Shown one piece after another: positions 49,793 to 59,362 of a stretch of 64,000 bases of DNA (the stretch's first letter is position 1; the number at the start of each line of letters is the position of its first letter). Both the position numbers and the translations under genes were made by a program. The DNA is from Acidobacteriota bacterium. GTDB taxonomy: Bacteria > Acidobacteriota > UBA890 > WLXD01. The stretch is taken from contig WLXD01000001.1 of NCBI GenBank assembly GCA_012103255.1, forward strand, positions 1,377,501 to 1,441,500, read 5' to 3'. The notes beneath the pieces are model-generated. The model had not been told where the DNA came from. It did not search any database and was given only the letters and a program-made list of their open reading frames with translations.

Positions 49793-49901
49793 GCAACGCC
49801 TGAGACCCTGCGAGCGCCATTCGCGTCCGGAAATGACCATGCCGTCGCGGCGACCGCATTCGCCTTGTGGCGACAGCGCGAGCGGCCCAAGGCGGCCGGG
49901 T

Positions 49902-49907
49902 TACACT
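49902..49907 (+). promoter_or_regulatory. -10-like hexamer for a leaderless start of the FIST gene
   Basis: TACACT ends 6 bases before the ATG at 49914. No ribosome binding site lies between them, and no strong -35 box is seen. Confidence 0.38.
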
Positions 49908-49913
49908 CCGCTC

Positions 49914-51109
<1,196 letters not shown>

Positions 51110-51113
<4 letters not shown>

Positions 51114-52411: not shown

Positions 52412-53158
52412 ATGCACGACACTGACGAGCTGACCGCTATCGTCGCCGCCAATGACGACGAGATAGCACCCCTGCGCGAACGGCTCGAGAATGCCGTAGA
52501 GGTCAAAGACGGGCCTCGTCGGTATCACGTGGGCACGCTCCGGGGCGCGCGGGTCGTTGTCGCCGCCACTGGCGACGGTAAACGGAACGCTGACCTCGGG
52601 GTGCGTCGGCTCATCCAGAAACTGTCTCCAACACGCATTCTGGCGATCGGGCTGGCCGGGGCAATTTCTGATCACCTGGTCGTGGGCGATCTATTGGTGT
52701 CCAGCGAGGTGCTGGAGGGCGAGCGGACGCTCGCCTGGCCCGATCTGCAATGGCTCGAGGAGTCGACGATCGCCACGGAGTACGACCTCGGGCGTCTGGT
52801 GACAGTCGACGAAATCCTCTCGACCCCGGACAGCAAGCGGACGCTATGGGGGAATACGTGGCGCGACCAGCCGGCAGCTGCCGACATGGAATCGGCCTGC
52901 TTTGCTCGGGTGGCGATCGCGTTCAACATTCCGTATCTGATTGCCAGGGTGATCAGCGACGACGTCTCCGAGTCGCTGCCAGACTTCCTGGAGGACTGCC
53001 GCGCCCAGGACGGCAGCATTGACAAGCGGCAAGTGCGCTGGAAGGCGTTCTGGCGACCGAAGTCCTGGTTGCCGCTATTCAGGTTGCGCGGCCGTGTGCA
53101 AAAGAGCGCCGTTGTGCTGGCTGACTTTGCCGAGGATCTGGTCGGGGGCGTCGCCTGA
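52412..53158 (+). CDS. Nucleoside phosphorylase-like protein (HpnG-like)
   Basis: A 248-residue protein of the nucleoside phosphorylase fold. LTAIVAANDDEIAPLRERL starts it, RILAIGLAGAISDHLVVGDLL is the phosphate/purine loop, and AADMESACFARVAIAFNIPY holds the typical MESA motif that binds ribose; ARVISDDVSE follows. Hopanoid clusters encode a similar enzyme (HpnG) that removes adenine from adenosyl hopane. The isoprenoid operon directly downstream makes that role attractive but unproven; a general MTA/SAH nucleosidase-like role is the alternative. Confidence 0.75.
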   Translation: MHDTDELTAIVAANDDEIAPLRERLENAVEVKDGPRRYHVGTLRGARVVVAATGDGKRNADLGVRRLIQKLSPTRILAIGLAGAISDHLVVGDLLVSSEVLEGERTLAWPDLQWLEESTIATEYDLGRLVTVDEILSTPDSKRTLWGNTWRDQPAAADMESACFARVAIAFNIPYLIARVISDDVSESLPDFLEDCRAQDGSIDKRQVRWKAFWRPKSWLPLFRLRGRVQKSAVVLADFAEDLVGGVA

Positions 53159-53220: not shown

Positions 53221-54258
53221 ATGGCCACGACGAACCCGCCGTCGGCAAGCGCGCCCGCACGTGACCGCAAGGCGGAACACATCCAATTGGCGCTCGACCG
53301 GCGTATGCAAACAGGCGGAGCTTTCGACCGATTCCGGTTGATGCATTGCGCGCTCCCCGAGATCGACCTCGCCGAGGTCGATATGTCGACGCGTTTTCTC
53401 GACAAGACGCTGTCGGCGCCTCTCCTGATCTCGTGCATGACCGGCGGTACCGACGAAGCGGAAGCGATTAATCGGAACTTGGCGATCGCCGCCGAGCGCG
53501 TCGGAGTGGCACTTGGGCTCGGATCGCAGCGCAAGGCCATCGAGGATCCGGCTACGCGCGAGAGTTTTCAGGTCCGCGACGTTGCGCCCAACGTCGCTCT
53601 GCTCGGCAATCTTGGCGCTGTGCAGTTCAACTATGGGTATGGACTGGCCGAGTGCCGCGAGGCCGTGGAGATGATCGGCGCCGACGCTCTGGTGCTCCAT
53701 CTGAATCCGCTGCAGGAGGCGATTCAGCCCGAAGGTGACGGGAACTTCAGCGGCTTGCTGGAGCGCATCGGCGCCACGGTGGACGAACTCGAGGTTCCGG
53801 TGGTCGTGAAAGAAATCGGCATGGGGATTTCGGGTGCGGTTGCGGAGGCCCTGCATGGGGTCGGCGTGCGAGTTATCGACACAGCCGGAGCCGGCGGCAC
53901 CAGCTGGGCTCGTATCGAGGCTGCCCGTGCCGACGACTTGGAGATCGGCGAGTTGTTTGCGGACTGGGGCGTGCCCACCGCGGTGAGTATTCGCGCTGCC
54001 GCCGCGTTCGACGACGTGACTGTGATCGGCAGTGGCGGTGTTCGTAACGGCATGGACATGGCCAAGGCAATTGCTCTCGGCGCCGACGTTGTCGGATTGG
54101 CCTATCCCTTCCTACGCGCTGCCACAGAGTCCCCCGACGCGGTGGAGACGCAGCTCAGGCGCATGCTGCGCGAGTTGCAGATCTGCATGTTCTGCACAGG
54201 AGCACGAACCGTCGCAGACTTGCAGCAGGTAGAACTGCTCGAAGAGGGGACGTCTTGA
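53221..54258 (+). CDS. fni: Type 2 isopentenyl-diphosphate delta-isomerase
   Basis: FMN-dependent enzyme that interconverts IPP and DMAPP. 345 residues. Motifs: RKAEHIQLALDR near the start; LISCMTGGTDEAEAINRNLA; LGLGSQRKAIEDP; NLGAVQFNYGYGL; ALVLHLNPLQEAIQPEGDGN, which holds the glutamine and glutamate of the active site and metal; VVVKEIGMGISG; VIDTAGAGGTSWARIE; and GSGGVRNGMDMAKAIALGAD for FMN phosphate. It opens the mevalonate operon and its stop overlaps the next start by 4 bases. Confidence 0.95.
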   Translation: MATTNPPSASAPARDRKAEHIQLALDRRMQTGGAFDRFRLMHCALPEIDLAEVDMSTRFLDKTLSAPLLISCMTGGTDEAEAINRNLAIAAERVGVALGLGSQRKAIEDPATRESFQVRDVAPNVALLGNLGAVQFNYGYGLAECREAVEMIGADALVLHLNPLQEAIQPEGDGNFSGLLERIGATVDELEVPVVVKEIGMGISGAVAEALHGVGVRVIDTAGAGGTSWARIEAARADDLEIGELFADWGVPTAVSIRAAAAFDDVTVIGSGGVRNGMDMAKAIALGADVVGLAYPFLRAATESPDAVETQLRRMLRELQICMFCTGARTVADLQQVELLEEGTS

Positions 54259-55496
54259 ACGATCTCGACGCGACCCACGACGACCTGGTTCGCGAGTTGG
54301 CCGAAGGAAAACGTCGGTTCCACGCGCTCCCGGATTCATTGAACGCAACCGAGCGGGCCGCCGTTCGCCGTGCGGCCCTGGCGCAGCGTTTCGGGGCCGA
54401 TCTCACGAAGACTGGCGAATACACGCTTGATGCCGAGGCGGCAGCCGATCGGCACTGCGAGAACATGATCGGCGCGACGCAGATTCCGGTTGGCGTCGTG
54501 GGCCCGTTGAGTGTGCGCGGCGACTATGCGGACGGCGACTTCTACGTCCCGTTGGCAACCACGGAAGGCGCGCTTGTGGCTTCGATCAATCGGGGCGCGA
54601 ACGCGATTACGGCGGCGGGCGGTGCTTCGGTACACGTAGAAGACGTCGGCATGACGCGAGCGCCGGTTTTCAAGACCTCGGGGCTTGCCGAGACACGAGA
54701 GTTTTTGGCCTGGGTCGTGGCCAACGAAGACGCGATGCGCGAGGTGGCGGAGGCGACTAGTCGCTACCTGCGGCTGCTGGATGTGAAGACATATGCCATA
54801 GGCACCACCGTGTTCGTCCGCTTCCGCTTCTCTTCAGGCGACGCGATGGGAATGAACATGGCCACGATTGCGTGCGATCGTGTCGTGCATGAACTCGTCG
54901 AAGTTCAGACCGGTGTTCAGTGCATCGCACTATCCGGCAACTACTGCGTGGACAAGAAACCGGCCGCGGTGAATTTCCAGCACGGGCGCGGCAAGCGCGT
55001 GCAGGCCGAGGTCGTTCTCGACGCGAGCGTCTTGCGGAAACTCAAGACAAATGCCGCCGATCTCGTGGAGGTGCAATACCGCAAGAACCTGCTCGGTTCG
55101 ATCGCGGCCGGCGCCACGGGTTACAACGCGCACTTCGCCAACGTGCTAGCAGCGTTCTTCCTGGCCACGGGGCAGGATCCCGCCCATGTTGCCGAAGCGT
55201 CCATGGGAGTCACCACCATCGAAGCTCACGGCGACGACGGCGTGATCGTGTCGGTGTTTCTGCCCGATACTCCGATTGCCGCGGTCGGCGGTGGCACAAC
55301 GCTCGACACCCAACGTGAGGCACTGGCGATCTTGGGAGTGAAAGCCGATCCGGAGCGTCCGGGCGTGGCAGCGCTGCGGCTTGCCGAGATACTGGGGGCG
55401 ACCGTGTTGGCCGGCGAACTTTCGCTCATGGCCGCATTCACCTCGAAGGATCTCGCAGGAGCTCACGAGCGCCTCGGTCGCAGCGCCCAGAGCTGA
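54255..55496 (+). CDS. hmgA: 3-hydroxy-3-methylglutaryl-CoA reductase
   Basis: Reduces HMG-CoA to mevalonate. 413 residues starting at TTG 54255, coupled to fni. Conserved parts: ENMIGATQIPVGVVGPL; PLATTEGALVASINRG with the catalytic Glu; GDAMGMNMATIACD for cofactor; NYCVDKKPAAVN with the catalytic Lys; AGATGYNAHFANVLAAFFLA; and near the end GELSLMAAFTSKDLAGAHERL with the probable catalytic His. Sequence and lack of a C-terminal extension of the bacterial class II kind place it closer to class I (archaeal/eukaryotic-like) reductases. NADPH use is likely but not proven. Confidence 0.94.
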   Translation: MNDLDATHDDLVRELAEGKRRFHALPDSLNATERAAVRRAALAQRFGADLTKTGEYTLDAEAAADRHCENMIGATQIPVGVVGPLSVRGDYADGDFYVPLATTEGALVASINRGANAITAAGGASVHVEDVGMTRAPVFKTSGLAETREFLAWVVANEDAMREVAEATSRYLRLLDVKTYAIGTTVFVRFRFSSGDAMGMNMATIACDRVVHELVEVQTGVQCIALSGNYCVDKKPAAVNFQHGRGKRVQAEVVLDASVLRKLKTNAADLVEVQYRKNLLGSIAAGATGYNAHFANVLAAFFLATGQDPAHVAEASMGVTTIEAHGDDGVIVSVFLPDTPIAAVGGGTTLDTQREALAILGVKADPERPGVAALRLAEILGATVLAGELSLMAAFTSKDLAGAHERLGRSAQS

Positions 55497-55503
55497 TCGT
55501 ACG

Positions 55504-56574
55504 ATGACGTCGCATCGCCGCGCCCGAACTTCTACCCCGGGCAAGCTGATCCTGATGGGCGAGCACGCGGCGGTCTACGGGGCGCCGGCACTTGTCACCG
55601 CAGTCGGCCTCCGAGTGCGGACGGATCTCGAGCGCTCCGCGAGCGCCGCGGTAGAGCTGCAACTGCCGGCACTCGATCACGAAGAGACCATTGATGCCGA
55701 GCGACTGCTGGAATACACCGCCGAGCAGCGCACCGCGTGGAAGGCATTCGCGGCTGAGCCGGACGCCGCCAACTACCAAGCGTTGCAGGACGGTGAGCCC
55801 GCGCGGTTGGCCCGGATTGCTCTTGGGGAGTGCGCGGAGCAGCTCGGTGAACTGCCCGGCACCCGATTGCGCGTAGAGTCCGATCTGCCGATCGGGTCAG
55901 GGTTTGGCAGTTCCGCGGCCGCGGCCGTAGGAGTCGCGAGCGCGGCGATTGCCCTCGGCGGCAGCGACGTTCGCTGGTCTGCAGTGGGGCCGATCGCCAT
56001 GGAGATCGAGCGACGGCAGCACGGTTCCCCCTCAGGTGTCGACGCTGCGACCGTGTTTCACGGGGGCGTACTGGCGGCGATGCGGCACGAGGGCGAGCTG
56101 TCCTTTGAGCCGCTGACGGCGAGAGCCGATCTGCTCCGCGAGTTTCGTGTCGTCCACACCGGAACTCCGGCCGAGGCAACTGGCACCGTGGTTGCCGCTG
56201 TTGGCGAACGCAGGAGGACCGCACGCGAGTGGTTCGAGACCATGCTCACCACGATGGCCGACACTACCGGGCGGTTCGAAGGACTGTTGATCGCGCCCGA
56301 GACCGTCGCCGAGGACCTGATCGACCCGATTCAGGTGTATCAGCGCACTCTCGAGGAAATCGGAGTGGTGCCCGGCCCGGTGGCTGAGCTGGTTCGTCGG
56401 ATCGAGCGTCGTGGCGGGGCGGCCAAGCTGTCGGGCGCTGGTGGCCTGAGCGGAAGCGGCGCCGGGTGCTTGTTGGTCCTGTTGCCCGAAGATGGTGATG
56501 ACCTGATGGATGGGCTCAACGAAGTCGTGGCGCCGTTGGCCGCTGAAGGCATGCGAGTGGAGCAGAAAGCATGA
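55504..56574 (+). CDS. mvk: Mevalonate kinase (GHMP family)
   Basis: Phosphorylates mevalonate at O5. 356 residues from ATG 55504, 7 bases after the reductase. TPGKLILMGEHAAVYGAPAL is the GHMP N-terminal motif, LPIGSGFGSSAAAAVGVAS the ATP loop, RRQHGSPSGVDAATVFHGG carries the catalytic Asp, and AKLSGAGGLSGSGAGCLL the C-terminal motif. Its product would be mevalonate 5-phosphate. There is no phosphomevalonate kinase beside it. Stop overlaps the next start by 4 bases. Confidence 0.92.
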   Translation: MTSHRRARTSTPGKLILMGEHAAVYGAPALVTAVGLRVRTDLERSASAAVELQLPALDHEETIDAERLLEYTAEQRTAWKAFAAEPDAANYQALQDGEPARLARIALGECAEQLGELPGTRLRVESDLPIGSGFGSSAAAAVGVASAAIALGGSDVRWSAVGPIAMEIERRQHGSPSGVDAATVFHGGVLAAMRHEGELSFEPLTARADLLREFRVVHTGTPAEATGTVVAAVGERRRTAREWFETMLTTMADTTGRFEGLLIAPETVAEDLIDPIQVYQRTLEEIGVVPGPVAELVRRIERRGGAAKLSGAGGLSGSGAGCLLVLLPEDGDDLMDGLNEVVAPLAAEGMRVEQKA

Positions 56575-57584
56575 CGCGCGAATGTACGTACGCGGTTGCC
56601 CCCAATATCGCGTTCATCAAGTACTGGGGAGCGACGGACCTGGATAGCGCGCTGCCGCGTAATGCGTCGATCTCCATGACCATGAGCGAGTGCGCGAGCA
56701 CCACATCCGTGCGCTGTCTCGAGCCCGGTCAGCCCGATGAGATCTGGCTCGCCGGGATCGACGGCCTGGTGGCCGCGGAGGGGGCGTTCCGTGACCGCGC
56801 GCTGGCCCACGTAGAGCGCCTCCGCGAGTACGCAGGGGTTGATCATGGACTCGCGGTGGCCACGCGCAACAACTTTCCGGCGGCGGCGGGTATTGCCTCA
56901 TCGGCCTCCGGCTTTGCCGCACTCACGGTCGCCACGCTCGGCGCTCTCGACAAAGAGGTTCCCGCTGCCGAACTCTCGGTGCTGGCACGCCGGTCAGGTT
57001 CTGGTTCGGCGTCGCGATCGGTGATGGGCGGCTACGTGCAGTGGCCTGATGGCGAGGATGCTGAGGGACCTGCCGTGCAGCTCGCGGCCGCGGATCACTG
57101 GGATCTGCGCGACGTCGTGGTGCTCGTGCAGCAAGACGAGAAGAAGGTGTCTTCGCTCGACGGACACCGTCGGGCTCCCTCCAGTCCTCATTTCGAGCGT
57201 CGGCAGGAGCTCCTACCGGATCGGCTCGCAGCGGTTCGGTCCGCAATCGATTCGCGCGACCTGGCCATTCTCGGGCCGGTCATCGAAGAGGACGCCATCG
57301 AACTTCATTTGATCGCGATGTCGTCACGACCGCCCATCTTCTATTGGCTTCCGGCGAGTCTCACAGTGCTGGCGGCGGTTCGGCGTCTGCGCGACCGCGG
57401 TGTGGAGGCCTGGGCCACGCTGGATGCCGGCGCGAATGTTCACGTGATTTGTGCGCCGGCCGCTGAAGAGGCTGTGGTTGCCGAGATGGAGAACCTGGAC
57501 GGCGTACACGGCGTGCTCAGAGATCGTGTGGGCAGCGGGCCCAAGCGACTCGATCGCTCTCTCTTTGCGGTGACCAGTTCATGA
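56571..57584 (+). CDS. Mevalonate-(di)phosphate decarboxylase family, possibly phosphomevalonate decarboxylase
   Basis: A 337-residue GHMP-type decarboxylase. APNIAFIKYWGATD is the N-terminal motif, NNFPAAAGIASSASGFAALT the ATP loop, SGSGSASRSVMGGYVQW carries Ser and Arg of the active site, and TLDAGANVHVIC the catalytic Asp. Usual diphosphomevalonate decarboxylases read KYWGK; here the Lys is Ala. In staphylococcal enzyme structures that lysine contacts the substrate diphosphate, as I recall. With isopentenyl phosphate kinase next, the substrate may be mevalonate 5-phosphate and the product isopentenyl phosphate. A classical diphosphate substrate is not excluded. Confidence 0.85.
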   Translation: MTRECTYAVAPNIAFIKYWGATDLDSALPRNASISMTMSECASTTSVRCLEPGQPDEIWLAGIDGLVAAEGAFRDRALAHVERLREYAGVDHGLAVATRNNFPAAAGIASSASGFAALTVATLGALDKEVPAAELSVLARRSGSGSASRSVMGGYVQWPDGEDAEGPAVQLAAADHWDLRDVVVLVQQDEKKVSSLDGHRRAPSSPHFERRQELLPDRLAAVRSAIDSRDLAILGPVIEEDAIELHLIAMSSRPPIFYWLPASLTVLAAVRRLRDRGVEAWATLDAGANVHVICAPAAEEAVVAEMENLDGVHGVLRDRVGSGPKRLDRSLFAVTSS

Positions 57585-58366
57585 AGCTCGCCGTAGTCAA
57601 ACTCGGTGGCAGCTTGATTACGAACAAGGGCGGCCGTCGATCCGTTAGCCGCAAGGATCTTGCTCGGCTGGCGGATGAGCTGGCTGAGGCGATCGGTCGG
57701 AGTCGACGGCGGTTCTTGATCGGCCATGGGAGCGGTTCGTTCGGACACGTGACTGCGTCCGAGCATGGAGTCCACCAAGGCAAGGCGAGTGCAGCCGGCG
57801 TTTCTGCCACCCAGGGAGTCGCTCGCGAACTCCACGAGATTGTCCTGGACGCCCTGCGCAAAGCTGGCCTGGCAACCTGGTCGGTCGCTCCGTCGAGCAG
57901 CATCGTTACCAAGGACGGTCGGCCGGCCGCGGTAGCCCTCGAGGGGTTGGAGGCCGCGCTGGAATCGAAGTTGGTTGCGGTGACCTACGGGGACGTTGTG
58001 ATGGATCGCAACCAGGGGCATGCGATCTGCTCCACCGAGACCGCGTTGCTGGCGTACTGTCGACGTTTGCGGGCCCGCGGCGTCGGAATTCGTGACGCGT
58101 ACTGGTTCGGCAACACCGACGGTGTGTACGACGCGACAGGAGCCACGGTGAATCGCCTCAGAGCGGCGCAGGCGCCGGCCCTTGCCAGCGCGGTTGGTGG
58201 CTCTGCGGATACGGACGTGACCGGGGGGATGCGTCATCGTCTTGATACCGCCGTTGCATTTGCGCGGATCGGTGTGAGTTCCTGGATTCTCGACGGCGCG
58301 ACTCCGGGCGTCTTGCCGGAGGCGTTGATCGGCAAGTACCGCGGCGGAACCAGGGTCGTCAGCTAG
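57581..58366 (+). CDS. Isopentenyl phosphate kinase
   Basis: Amino-acid kinase fold enzyme making IPP from isopentenyl phosphate and ATP. 261 residues. VVKLGGSLITNKGGR is the N-terminal phosphate loop; LIGHGSGSFGHVTASEHG carries the histidine characteristic of isopentenyl phosphate kinases within GxGSFGH; VTYGDVVMDRN and NTDGVYD follow; and GGSADTDVTGGMRHRLDTA is the ATP site. The start overlaps the decarboxylase by 4 bases. Archaeal and some Chloroflexota mevalonate pathways use this enzyme. Other amino-acid kinases (glutamate, uridylate) are less likely because of the GHGSGSFGH motif and neighbours. Confidence 0.9.
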   Translation: MKLAVVKLGGSLITNKGGRRSVSRKDLARLADELAEAIGRSRRRFLIGHGSGSFGHVTASEHGVHQGKASAAGVSATQGVARELHEIVLDALRKAGLATWSVAPSSSIVTKDGRPAAVALEGLEAALESKLVAVTYGDVVMDRNQGHAICSTETALLAYCRRLRARGVGIRDAYWFGNTDGVYDATGATVNRLRAAQAPALASAVGGSADTDVTGGMRHRLDTAVAFARIGVSSWILDGATPGVLPEALIGKYRGGTRVVS

Positions 58367-58444: not shown

Positions 58445-59362
58445 ATGTCCCGCATCGACGAGCTTCTGACAACCACGAGCCGGACCTTCGCCCTGTCGAT
58501 CCCGCTGTTGCCGGAGCCGACGCGCGCGCAGCTGGGCATTGCCTACCTGCTCTTCCGGATCGCGGACACCTTCGAGGACGCCACTGCGTGGTCCAACGAG
58601 CGCCGCATCGAGGCGTTGGGCGAGTTCGAAGATCTGCTCGAGAATGGCACCGCCGAGCGTGCGCTCGAGTTGGGCACCGCCTGGGCAGACGGGCGTCCGA
58701 TCGAACACGAGGGCTACCTGGATCTACTCAGGGAAACGCCCGCCGTTATCGAAGCTTTTCAGGAACTTGAGCCCGAGGCGCGCGAGATCATTCGTCGCCA
58801 TACCTTGCGAACGGCGCGCGGCATGGCGCGCTTCGTGGATCGGACTGTGGCCGGCCAGTTGCGGCTCAACGATCTCGAGGATCTCCGCGACTACTGCTAC
58901 GTCGTCGCCGGAATCGTAGGAGAACTGAGTACCGATCTCTTCGTTCTGGGGCGGGGGGCTCTCACCGACATTGCTGACTCCTTGCGGGCGCGCGCGCCAC
59001 GGTTCGGCGAGGCCCTTCAGCTAGTGAATATCCTGAAGGACGCCGCGTTCGACGCAGGCGAAGGGCGCACCTACTTGCCGGCAGAGGTCGATCGCGACGA
59101 AGTGTTCGCGCTTGCCCGCGCGGATCTCGAAATCGCCGCGGACTACACCAATGAATTGCAGGCCGCTGCGGCGCCCCGCGGCATCGTCGCCTTCTGCGCC
59201 TTGCCCGTCCGCCTGGCCTTCGCGGCGCTGGAAGCCGTACATACGCATGGACCCGGCACGAAGGTCACGCGCGAACAGGTGTTCGCGATTGTCGACGCGA
59301 TGAACCGTGCGCTCGACGCCGGGGCCCCGGCCGTTTCGGTGCCGGAGCCCGTCGGCAGCTGA
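58445..59362 (+). CDS. Squalene/phytoene synthase family protein
   Basis: Head-to-head prenyl synthase of 305 residues. The N-terminal SRTFALSIPLLPEP and LLFRIADTFEDATAW (first Asp-rich motif) and DYCYVVAGIVGELSTDLF with LQLVNILKDAAFDAGEGRTYLP (second Asp-rich motif) are clear. It joins two farnesyl or geranylgeranyl diphosphates into squalene or phytoene; sequence alone does not decide. It lies 78 bases after the kinase, so probably the same transcript. The ATG at 58445 was chosen; TTG at 58427 is the alternative. It is the only product-forming gene of the cluster. Confidence 0.9.
   Translation: MSRIDELLTTTSRTFALSIPLLPEPTRAQLGIAYLLFRIADTFEDATAWSNERRIEALGEFEDLLENGTAERALELGTAWADGRPIEHEGYLDLLRETPAVIEAFQELEPEAREIIRRHTLRTARGMARFVDRTVAGQLRLNDLEDLRDYCYVVAGIVGELSTDLFVLGRGALTDIADSLRARAPRFGEALQLVNILKDAAFDAGEGRTYLPAEVDRDEVFALARADLEIAADYTNELQAAAAPRGIVAFCALPVRLAFAALEAVHTHGPGTKVTREQVFAIVDAMNRALDAGAPAVSVPEPVGS

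Follow-up and report, generated by a model that had tools for sequence, protein, structure and literature searches.

By what route does an acidobacterium make isopentenyl diphosphate (IPP) when its mevalonate genes include an isopentenyl phosphate kinase (IPK) and no recognizable phosphomevalonate kinase? This question is raised by five genes at positions 53221-58366 of a 64,000-nucleotide stretch of Acidobacteriota DNA (the window; positions 1,377,501 to 1,441,500 of contig WLXD01000001.1, assembly GCA_012103255.1). The genome containing the window (G000; 4.81 Mb, 9 contigs, 95.04% complete) was analyzed together with that of a congener (G008). The alternative mevalonate route is rare and is known mainly from salt-loving archaea and Chloroflexota. 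We conclude that the alternative mevalonate operon of the window is real and conserved. In the open-access literature we found no report of this pathway from Acidobacteriota; subscription papers may contain one. It is very probable that the encoded pathway is of the haloarchaeal or Chloroflexota type.

Organization of the operon

The five genes encode type 2 isopentenyl-diphosphate isomerase (fni), 3-hydroxy-3-methylglutaryl-CoA (HMG-CoA) reductase (hmgR), mevalonate kinase (mvk), a decarboxylase and IPK (ipk), and lie back to back on the + strand (Table 1). Overlaps of 4 bases were found at three of the four junctions (fni/hmgR, mvk/decarboxylase and decarboxylase/ipk), and 7 spacer bases separate hmgR from mvk. 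The mvk start codon, an ATG at 55504, was chosen by us; the longest frame begins at 55381. The original prediction, made from the window sequence, described five consecutive genes mostly overlapping by 4 bases, and this was confirmed by the gene calls and family models. We infer that the genes are co-transcribed.

In the proposed pathway HMG-CoA reductase would convert HMG-CoA to mevalonate, which mevalonate kinase would convert to mevalonate 5-phosphate. The decarboxylase, with ATP, would then yield isopentenyl phosphate, IPK would convert this compound to IPP, and the type 2 isomerase would convert IPP to dimethylallyl diphosphate. This predicted order of reactions is that of the haloarchaea-type pathway, with the phosphomevalonate decarboxylase and IPK of Haloferax volcanii (PMC9254496).

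Table 1. Genes of the mevalonate cluster and its two flanking candidates (window coordinates)
Feature	Coordinates	Strand	Evidence
Nucleoside phosphorylase family protein, putative first cluster gene	52412..53158	+	PF01048 E 8.5e-26; weak HpnG/MTA-SAH nucleosidase matches under cut-off
fni, type 2 isopentenyl-diphosphate isomerase	53221..54258	+	TIGR02151 403.6 bits, cut-off 281.3
HMG-CoA reductase, TTG start	54255..55496	+	PF00368 E 1e-112; TIGR00533 435.3 bits, slightly below cut-off 441.8
Mevalonate kinase	55504..56574	+	TIGR00549 138 bits, below cut-off 163, best family by far
Mevalonate 5-phosphate decarboxylase (predicted)	56571..57584	+	TIGR01240 209.7 bits, cut-off 171.35; closest PDB 6n0x/6n0y/6n0z; Ala21, His199
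Isopentenyl phosphate kinase	57581..58366	+	NF040647 143.7 bits, cut-off 120; active-site-motif His at residue 56
Squalene/phytoene synthase family protein	58445..59362	+	PF00494 E 4e-39; TIGR01559 101 bits, below cut-off

Distribution of the operon

Of the 396 genomes sampled from the phylum, 24 carried the clade of the window's decarboxylase. Matches above the PF22700 cut-off were obtained in 35 genomes, comprising the 24 clade members (23 by tblastn and G183 by a fetched stretch), seven genomes with decarboxylases resembling diphosphomevalonate decarboxylase (DMD) and four with weak matches to other proteins. An operon of this form was originally considered notable in an acidobacterium, a judgement that is tempered by these 24 carriers, as the operon is not unique.

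When named genomes of bacteria and archaea were scanned with an alignment of the clade, at least 572 relatives were obtained. Among the best 80, which were analyzed, 22 belong to the window's clade by sequence and tree (L053-L066, L068-L070, L076, L077, L080, L083 and L130; L083 was not in the tree and was placed by its residues). These are mostly from Thermoanaerobaculia and other Acidobacteriota, with two from Gemmatimonadales and one each from Planctomycetota, Salinibacteraceae and Schekmanbacteria; the scattered copies outside Acidobacteriota suggest gene transfer or misbinned contigs. As gene order is identical in G008, where the genes are divided between two contigs, and all five genes are present in 16 of the 22 named loci (our count; several of the others end at contig edges), the arrangement is beyond chance. 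In the tree the clade was placed next to, and also inside, a larger group of enzymes from Chloroflexota. The Salinibacteraceae locus, from a metagenome-assembled genome (L063:3943-8270), contains fni, reductase, decarboxylase and IPK genes in order, and the window's mevalonate kinase was unmatched within that stretch.

Search for a phosphomevalonate kinase

A GHMP model identified four proteins in G000. Two were the operon's mevalonate kinase and decarboxylase, the third was a galactokinase (TIGR00131 228.1 bits, cut-off 226.65), and the fourth was an HddA-like sugar kinase closest to D-glycero-D-manno-heptose 7-phosphate kinase (72.9 bits, far under that model's cut-off). The mevalonate kinase scored only 24.3 bits against the phosphomevalonate kinase model TIGR01220, compared to 138 bits for TIGR00549. 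No phosphomevalonate kinase candidate was therefore present among the four GHMP proteins of this 95% complete genome, which extends to the whole genome the earlier observation that no second GHMP kinase for mevalonate diphosphate accompanies the operon. The animal-type kinase (PF04275) gave no match above cut-off in any of the 11 carriers searched, including G000 and G008, with a control set that held no animal genome; the sole match was in G213 (E 0.57).

Substrate type of the decarboxylase

The best sequence match of the window decarboxylase in the PDB was 6n0x (233.9 bits). An AlphaFold2 model (mean pLDDT 93.8) had 6n0x, 6n0y and 6n0z as its nearest structures (39-40% identity, TM 0.89-0.91), all of them mevalonate 5-phosphate decarboxylase (MPD) from Anaerolinea thermophila, and 6n0z being the N20K H194M mutant. 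Alignment placed Ala21 and His199 of the window enzyme at positions N20 and H194, respectively. As judged from this alignment, the window decarboxylase has phosphomevalonate-type residues, with the MPD histidine but without the DMD lysine, and it is predicted to act on mevalonate 5-phosphate. The MPD histidine was kept in all 31 rows of one alignment. In a wider alignment of 102 rows, Met, Asn or Gln occupied this position in nine rows from Chloroflexota, Woesebacteria and Altarchaeum (L088, L089, L099, L107, L109, L113, L114, L117 and L132), which are separate from the Met rows described next.

Seven DMD-like decarboxylases from the same phylum (L174-L180) have K and M at the two positions, and formed a separate branch with an SH-aLRT value of 100 in a quick tree of 62 of the 102 rows. 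These classical loci share mevalonate kinase, HMG-CoA reductase and a homologous decarboxylase with the window, but the decarboxylase is of the K/M/QxK type, the reductase is distant and no IPK match was found at the seven loci. L174 and L177 have an additional GHMP kinase. Among the neighboring kinases at three of the seven loci, those of L177 and L174 scored best as phosphomevalonate kinase (below cut-off) and that of L178 slightly better as mevalonate kinase. At L177:8709-10961 (+), beside the K/M-type decarboxylase and phosphomevalonate kinase-like genes, a single 750-aa frame fuses a distant HMG-CoA reductase to mevalonate kinase. Neither a phosphomevalonate kinase nor a K/M-type decarboxylase was found in G000.

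The pathway of Chloroflexota, represented by Roseiflexus castenholzii MPD and IPK (PMC3857490) and by A. thermophila MPD (6n0x), likewise has a decarboxylase and IPK in place of phosphomevalonate kinase and DMD; these decarboxylases also have no DMD lysine and retain the MPD histidine. No match at E 1e-6 to the window's HMG-CoA reductase or fni was obtained within the stretches fetched from Chloroflexota, whereas in Acidobacteriota both are inside the operon. The window decarboxylase is remote from the haloarchaeal model NF040704 (144.8 bits, cut-off 475).

Isopentenyl phosphate kinase

The operon's IPK was above the cut-off of its family model and has the active-site histidine. The IPK and decarboxylase genes are adjacent in 21 of the 22 named clade loci and in 13 of 15 clade stretches from the window's phylum (the window, L022 and 13 fetched stretches, some of them from the same genomes as the named loci). 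The residue preceding the GD motif of IPK is Ala in the window, Val in the congener (L022:3857-4642) and Pro in the other 38 of 40 rows.

Classical or alternative pathway

Several observations weigh against the alternative pathway, and some of them would fit a classical one, in which the decarboxylase would act on mevalonate 5-diphosphate, an unrecognized or bifunctional kinase would supply the diphosphate and IPK would only salvage isopentenyl phosphate. The window enzyme exceeds the cut-off of TIGR01240, a DMD model, and annotation models name it as such. Eight other enzymes, both MPD-like and DMD-like, all scored above the TIGR01240 cut-off as well, and family models were dropped as a substrate test because this model passes every decarboxylase tried. 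A. thermophila MPD is 40-47% identical to the K/M-type acidobacterial enzymes and 39% identical to the window enzyme; as overall identity points the opposite way for this MPD, it was likewise dropped as a substrate test. Possible dual specificity was suggested in PMC11052028 for Chloroflexota enzymes without the DMD lysine and with the phosphomevalonate decarboxylase histidine. In addition, G000 is 5% incomplete.

The remaining points concern individual residues and loci. Table 4 of PMC3857490 gives Leu77, Arg83, Ala201 and Thr255 as a residue set of R. castenholzii MPD; in our alignment the last three correspond to Ala, Ser and Ser, and the window enzyme thus has neither Arg nor Thr at 83, no Ala at 201 and no Thr at 255. 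R. castenholzii belongs to another phylum, and Arg83 was not general even among the Chloroflexota homologues aligned. The Ala of the window IPK stands where PMC3857490 lists a highly conserved proline. IPK did not adjoin the decarboxylase in G151 (L167) or G333 (L166), for which the search covered these loci only.

Despite these points we consider the classical pathway unlikely, given that G000 has no phosphomevalonate kinase candidate, that the window decarboxylase has the MPD histidine and not the DMD lysine, and that IPK lies inside the operon and is conserved there. The original proposal of an alternative pathway is thus supported by the missing kinase, by the phosphomevalonate-type residues from which the decarboxylase activity is predicted, and by the lack of IspG described below.

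Relationship to the methylerythritol phosphate pathway

IspG (PF04551) gave no match in G000, G008, G007 or G006 (95, 92, 77 and 71% complete, respectively), although it was matched in four of five sister-family genomes and in 366 of the 396 genomes sampled from the phylum. A search of the genome for methylerythritol phosphate (MEP) pathway genes had been suggested originally; IspG was the sole MEP gene searched directly, so that the pathway in G000 and G008 is judged by IspG alone, DXR and IspH not having been searched. Among the 24 carriers of the window's decarboxylase clade, IspG was present in 16 and absent from eight (G000, G008, G062, G151, G237, G245, G333 and G367; the last two inferred from their absence among the listed positives). 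Many relatives thus have both the operon and the MEP pathway, whereas the window's genus appears to have the operon only. In genus g66 of the same phylum (14 genomes sampled, e.g. G213 and G183), IspG and HMG-CoA synthase occur along with this operon's decarboxylase. In the sister family, one IspG-bearing genome gave a match to HMG-CoA reductase at G005:C144:4538-5458 (L234) but none to the decarboxylase model.

It is also improbable that an overlooked MEP pathway makes the essential isoprenoids while the operon feeds one product, e.g. a squalene-derived lipid: the 16 carriers with IspG and the squalene/phytoene synthase gene that follows the operon would be consistent with it, but IspG, the one gene searched directly, is missing from both operon-bearing genomes of the genus, and none of the GHMP proteins of G000 is IspE-like. 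The alternative mevalonate operon is therefore probably the only route to IPP in this cell.

Source of HMG-CoA

Of the 24 carriers, 19 have HMG-CoA synthase as judged by PF01154 (E <1e-20); the other five (G000, G008, G022, G062 and G118) gave no match at E 0.001. The enzyme, absent from the window as stated in the original prediction, was thus not found elsewhere in G000 either. The archaeal HMG-CoA synthase model TIGR00748 gave nothing above cut-off in the same five genomes, a threshold below which the true positives G213 and G367 also score. The TIGR00748 candidates that were readable, in G000, G118 and G062, carry HQAN and GNT motifs; we take these to be KASIII-type motifs and the G000 candidate to be KASIII-like. 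Judged by HMG-CoA synthase, no complete pathway from acetyl-CoA was found in G000 or G008.

HMG-CoA can also be reached from leucine via methylcrotonyl-CoA and methylglutaconyl-CoA, as described for myxobacteria and trypanosomatids (PMC7321100, PMC5993337). Contig C2 of G000 contains a cluster encoding a methylcrotonyl-CoA carboxylase-like beta subunit, an enoyl-CoA hydratase and a biotin carboxylase, with an HMG-CoA lyase nearby (NF004283 420.9 bits, cut-off 246), and G008 has the same carboxylase, hydratase and lyase gene set. Late genes of the leucine route are therefore clustered in G000 and G008; Trypanosoma brucei additionally has an HMG-CoA synthase gene, and none was found in G000 or G008. 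The best PDB matches of the beta subunit, with close scores, were AccD1, a chain named propionyl-CoA carboxylase beta subunit and methylcrotonyl-CoA carboxylase.

The HMG-CoA of G000 may thus plausibly come from leucine breakdown, in which case methylcrotonyl-CoA carboxylase and methylglutaconyl-CoA hydratase would yield HMG-CoA for the reductase, mevalonate kinase, decarboxylase and IPK. This reading is weakened by the fact that the genes of the carboxylase cluster are also those of normal leucine catabolism. Isovaleryl-CoA dehydrogenase was not seen in two flanking stretches scanned by a crude motif search. Carboxylase presence is also not specific, as G237 and G367 have a carboxylase of ~50% identity alongside HMG-CoA synthase. 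It is possible, though less likely than not, that the sole isoprenoid route of the window's genus is a mevalonate pathway fed by leucine rather than acetyl-CoA, without the MEP pathway and without HMG-CoA synthase. Just as interesting would be the alternative of an HMG-CoA synthase that is unrelated to the known ones and has escaped recognition.

Leucine breakdown did not hold as an explanation for every carrier without HMG-CoA synthase, the cluster being clear only in G000 and G008. The carboxylases of G118 and G062 are only ~35% identical, with glutaconyl-CoA decarboxylase as the best PDB match in G062, and in G022 the carboxylase is 50% identical and a hydratase-like match lies farther away. 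G022 and G118 need not depend on leucine, since both have IspG. G062, in which neither IspG, HMG-CoA synthase nor the carboxylase cluster was seen, is not explained in this way.

Neighboring genes

The squalene/phytoene synthase family gene begins 78 bases downstream of ipk and also lies 3' of IPK in several relatives. It is probably the product branch of the cluster and points to a triterpenoid or carotenoid product. The nucleoside phosphorylase family gene stops 62 bases 5' of fni, is also found 5' of fni in G008, G118 and G062, and is possibly the first gene of the cluster. Farther upstream, positions 49833-51113 (+) encode a protein with FIST N and FIST C domains.

Implications

Our least expected result was that HMG-CoA synthase was not detected in G000 and G008; if this is real, the mevalonate pathway here would lack the enzyme by which it is normally entered. 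As to range, two papers state that, among bacterial phyla with the mevalonate pathway, IPK occurs only in Chloroflexi (PMC3857490, 2013), and that the alternative pathway is found in bacteria in some Chloroflexota (PMC11052028, 2024). An operon that is conserved in Acidobacteriota and occurs sporadically in other groups suggests a wider bacterial range of the alternative pathway. Moreover, as genomes with MPD and IPK, with a DMD-type enzyme and with the MEP pathway occur side by side in this one phylum, it should be useful for studying the substrate switch of the decarboxylase.

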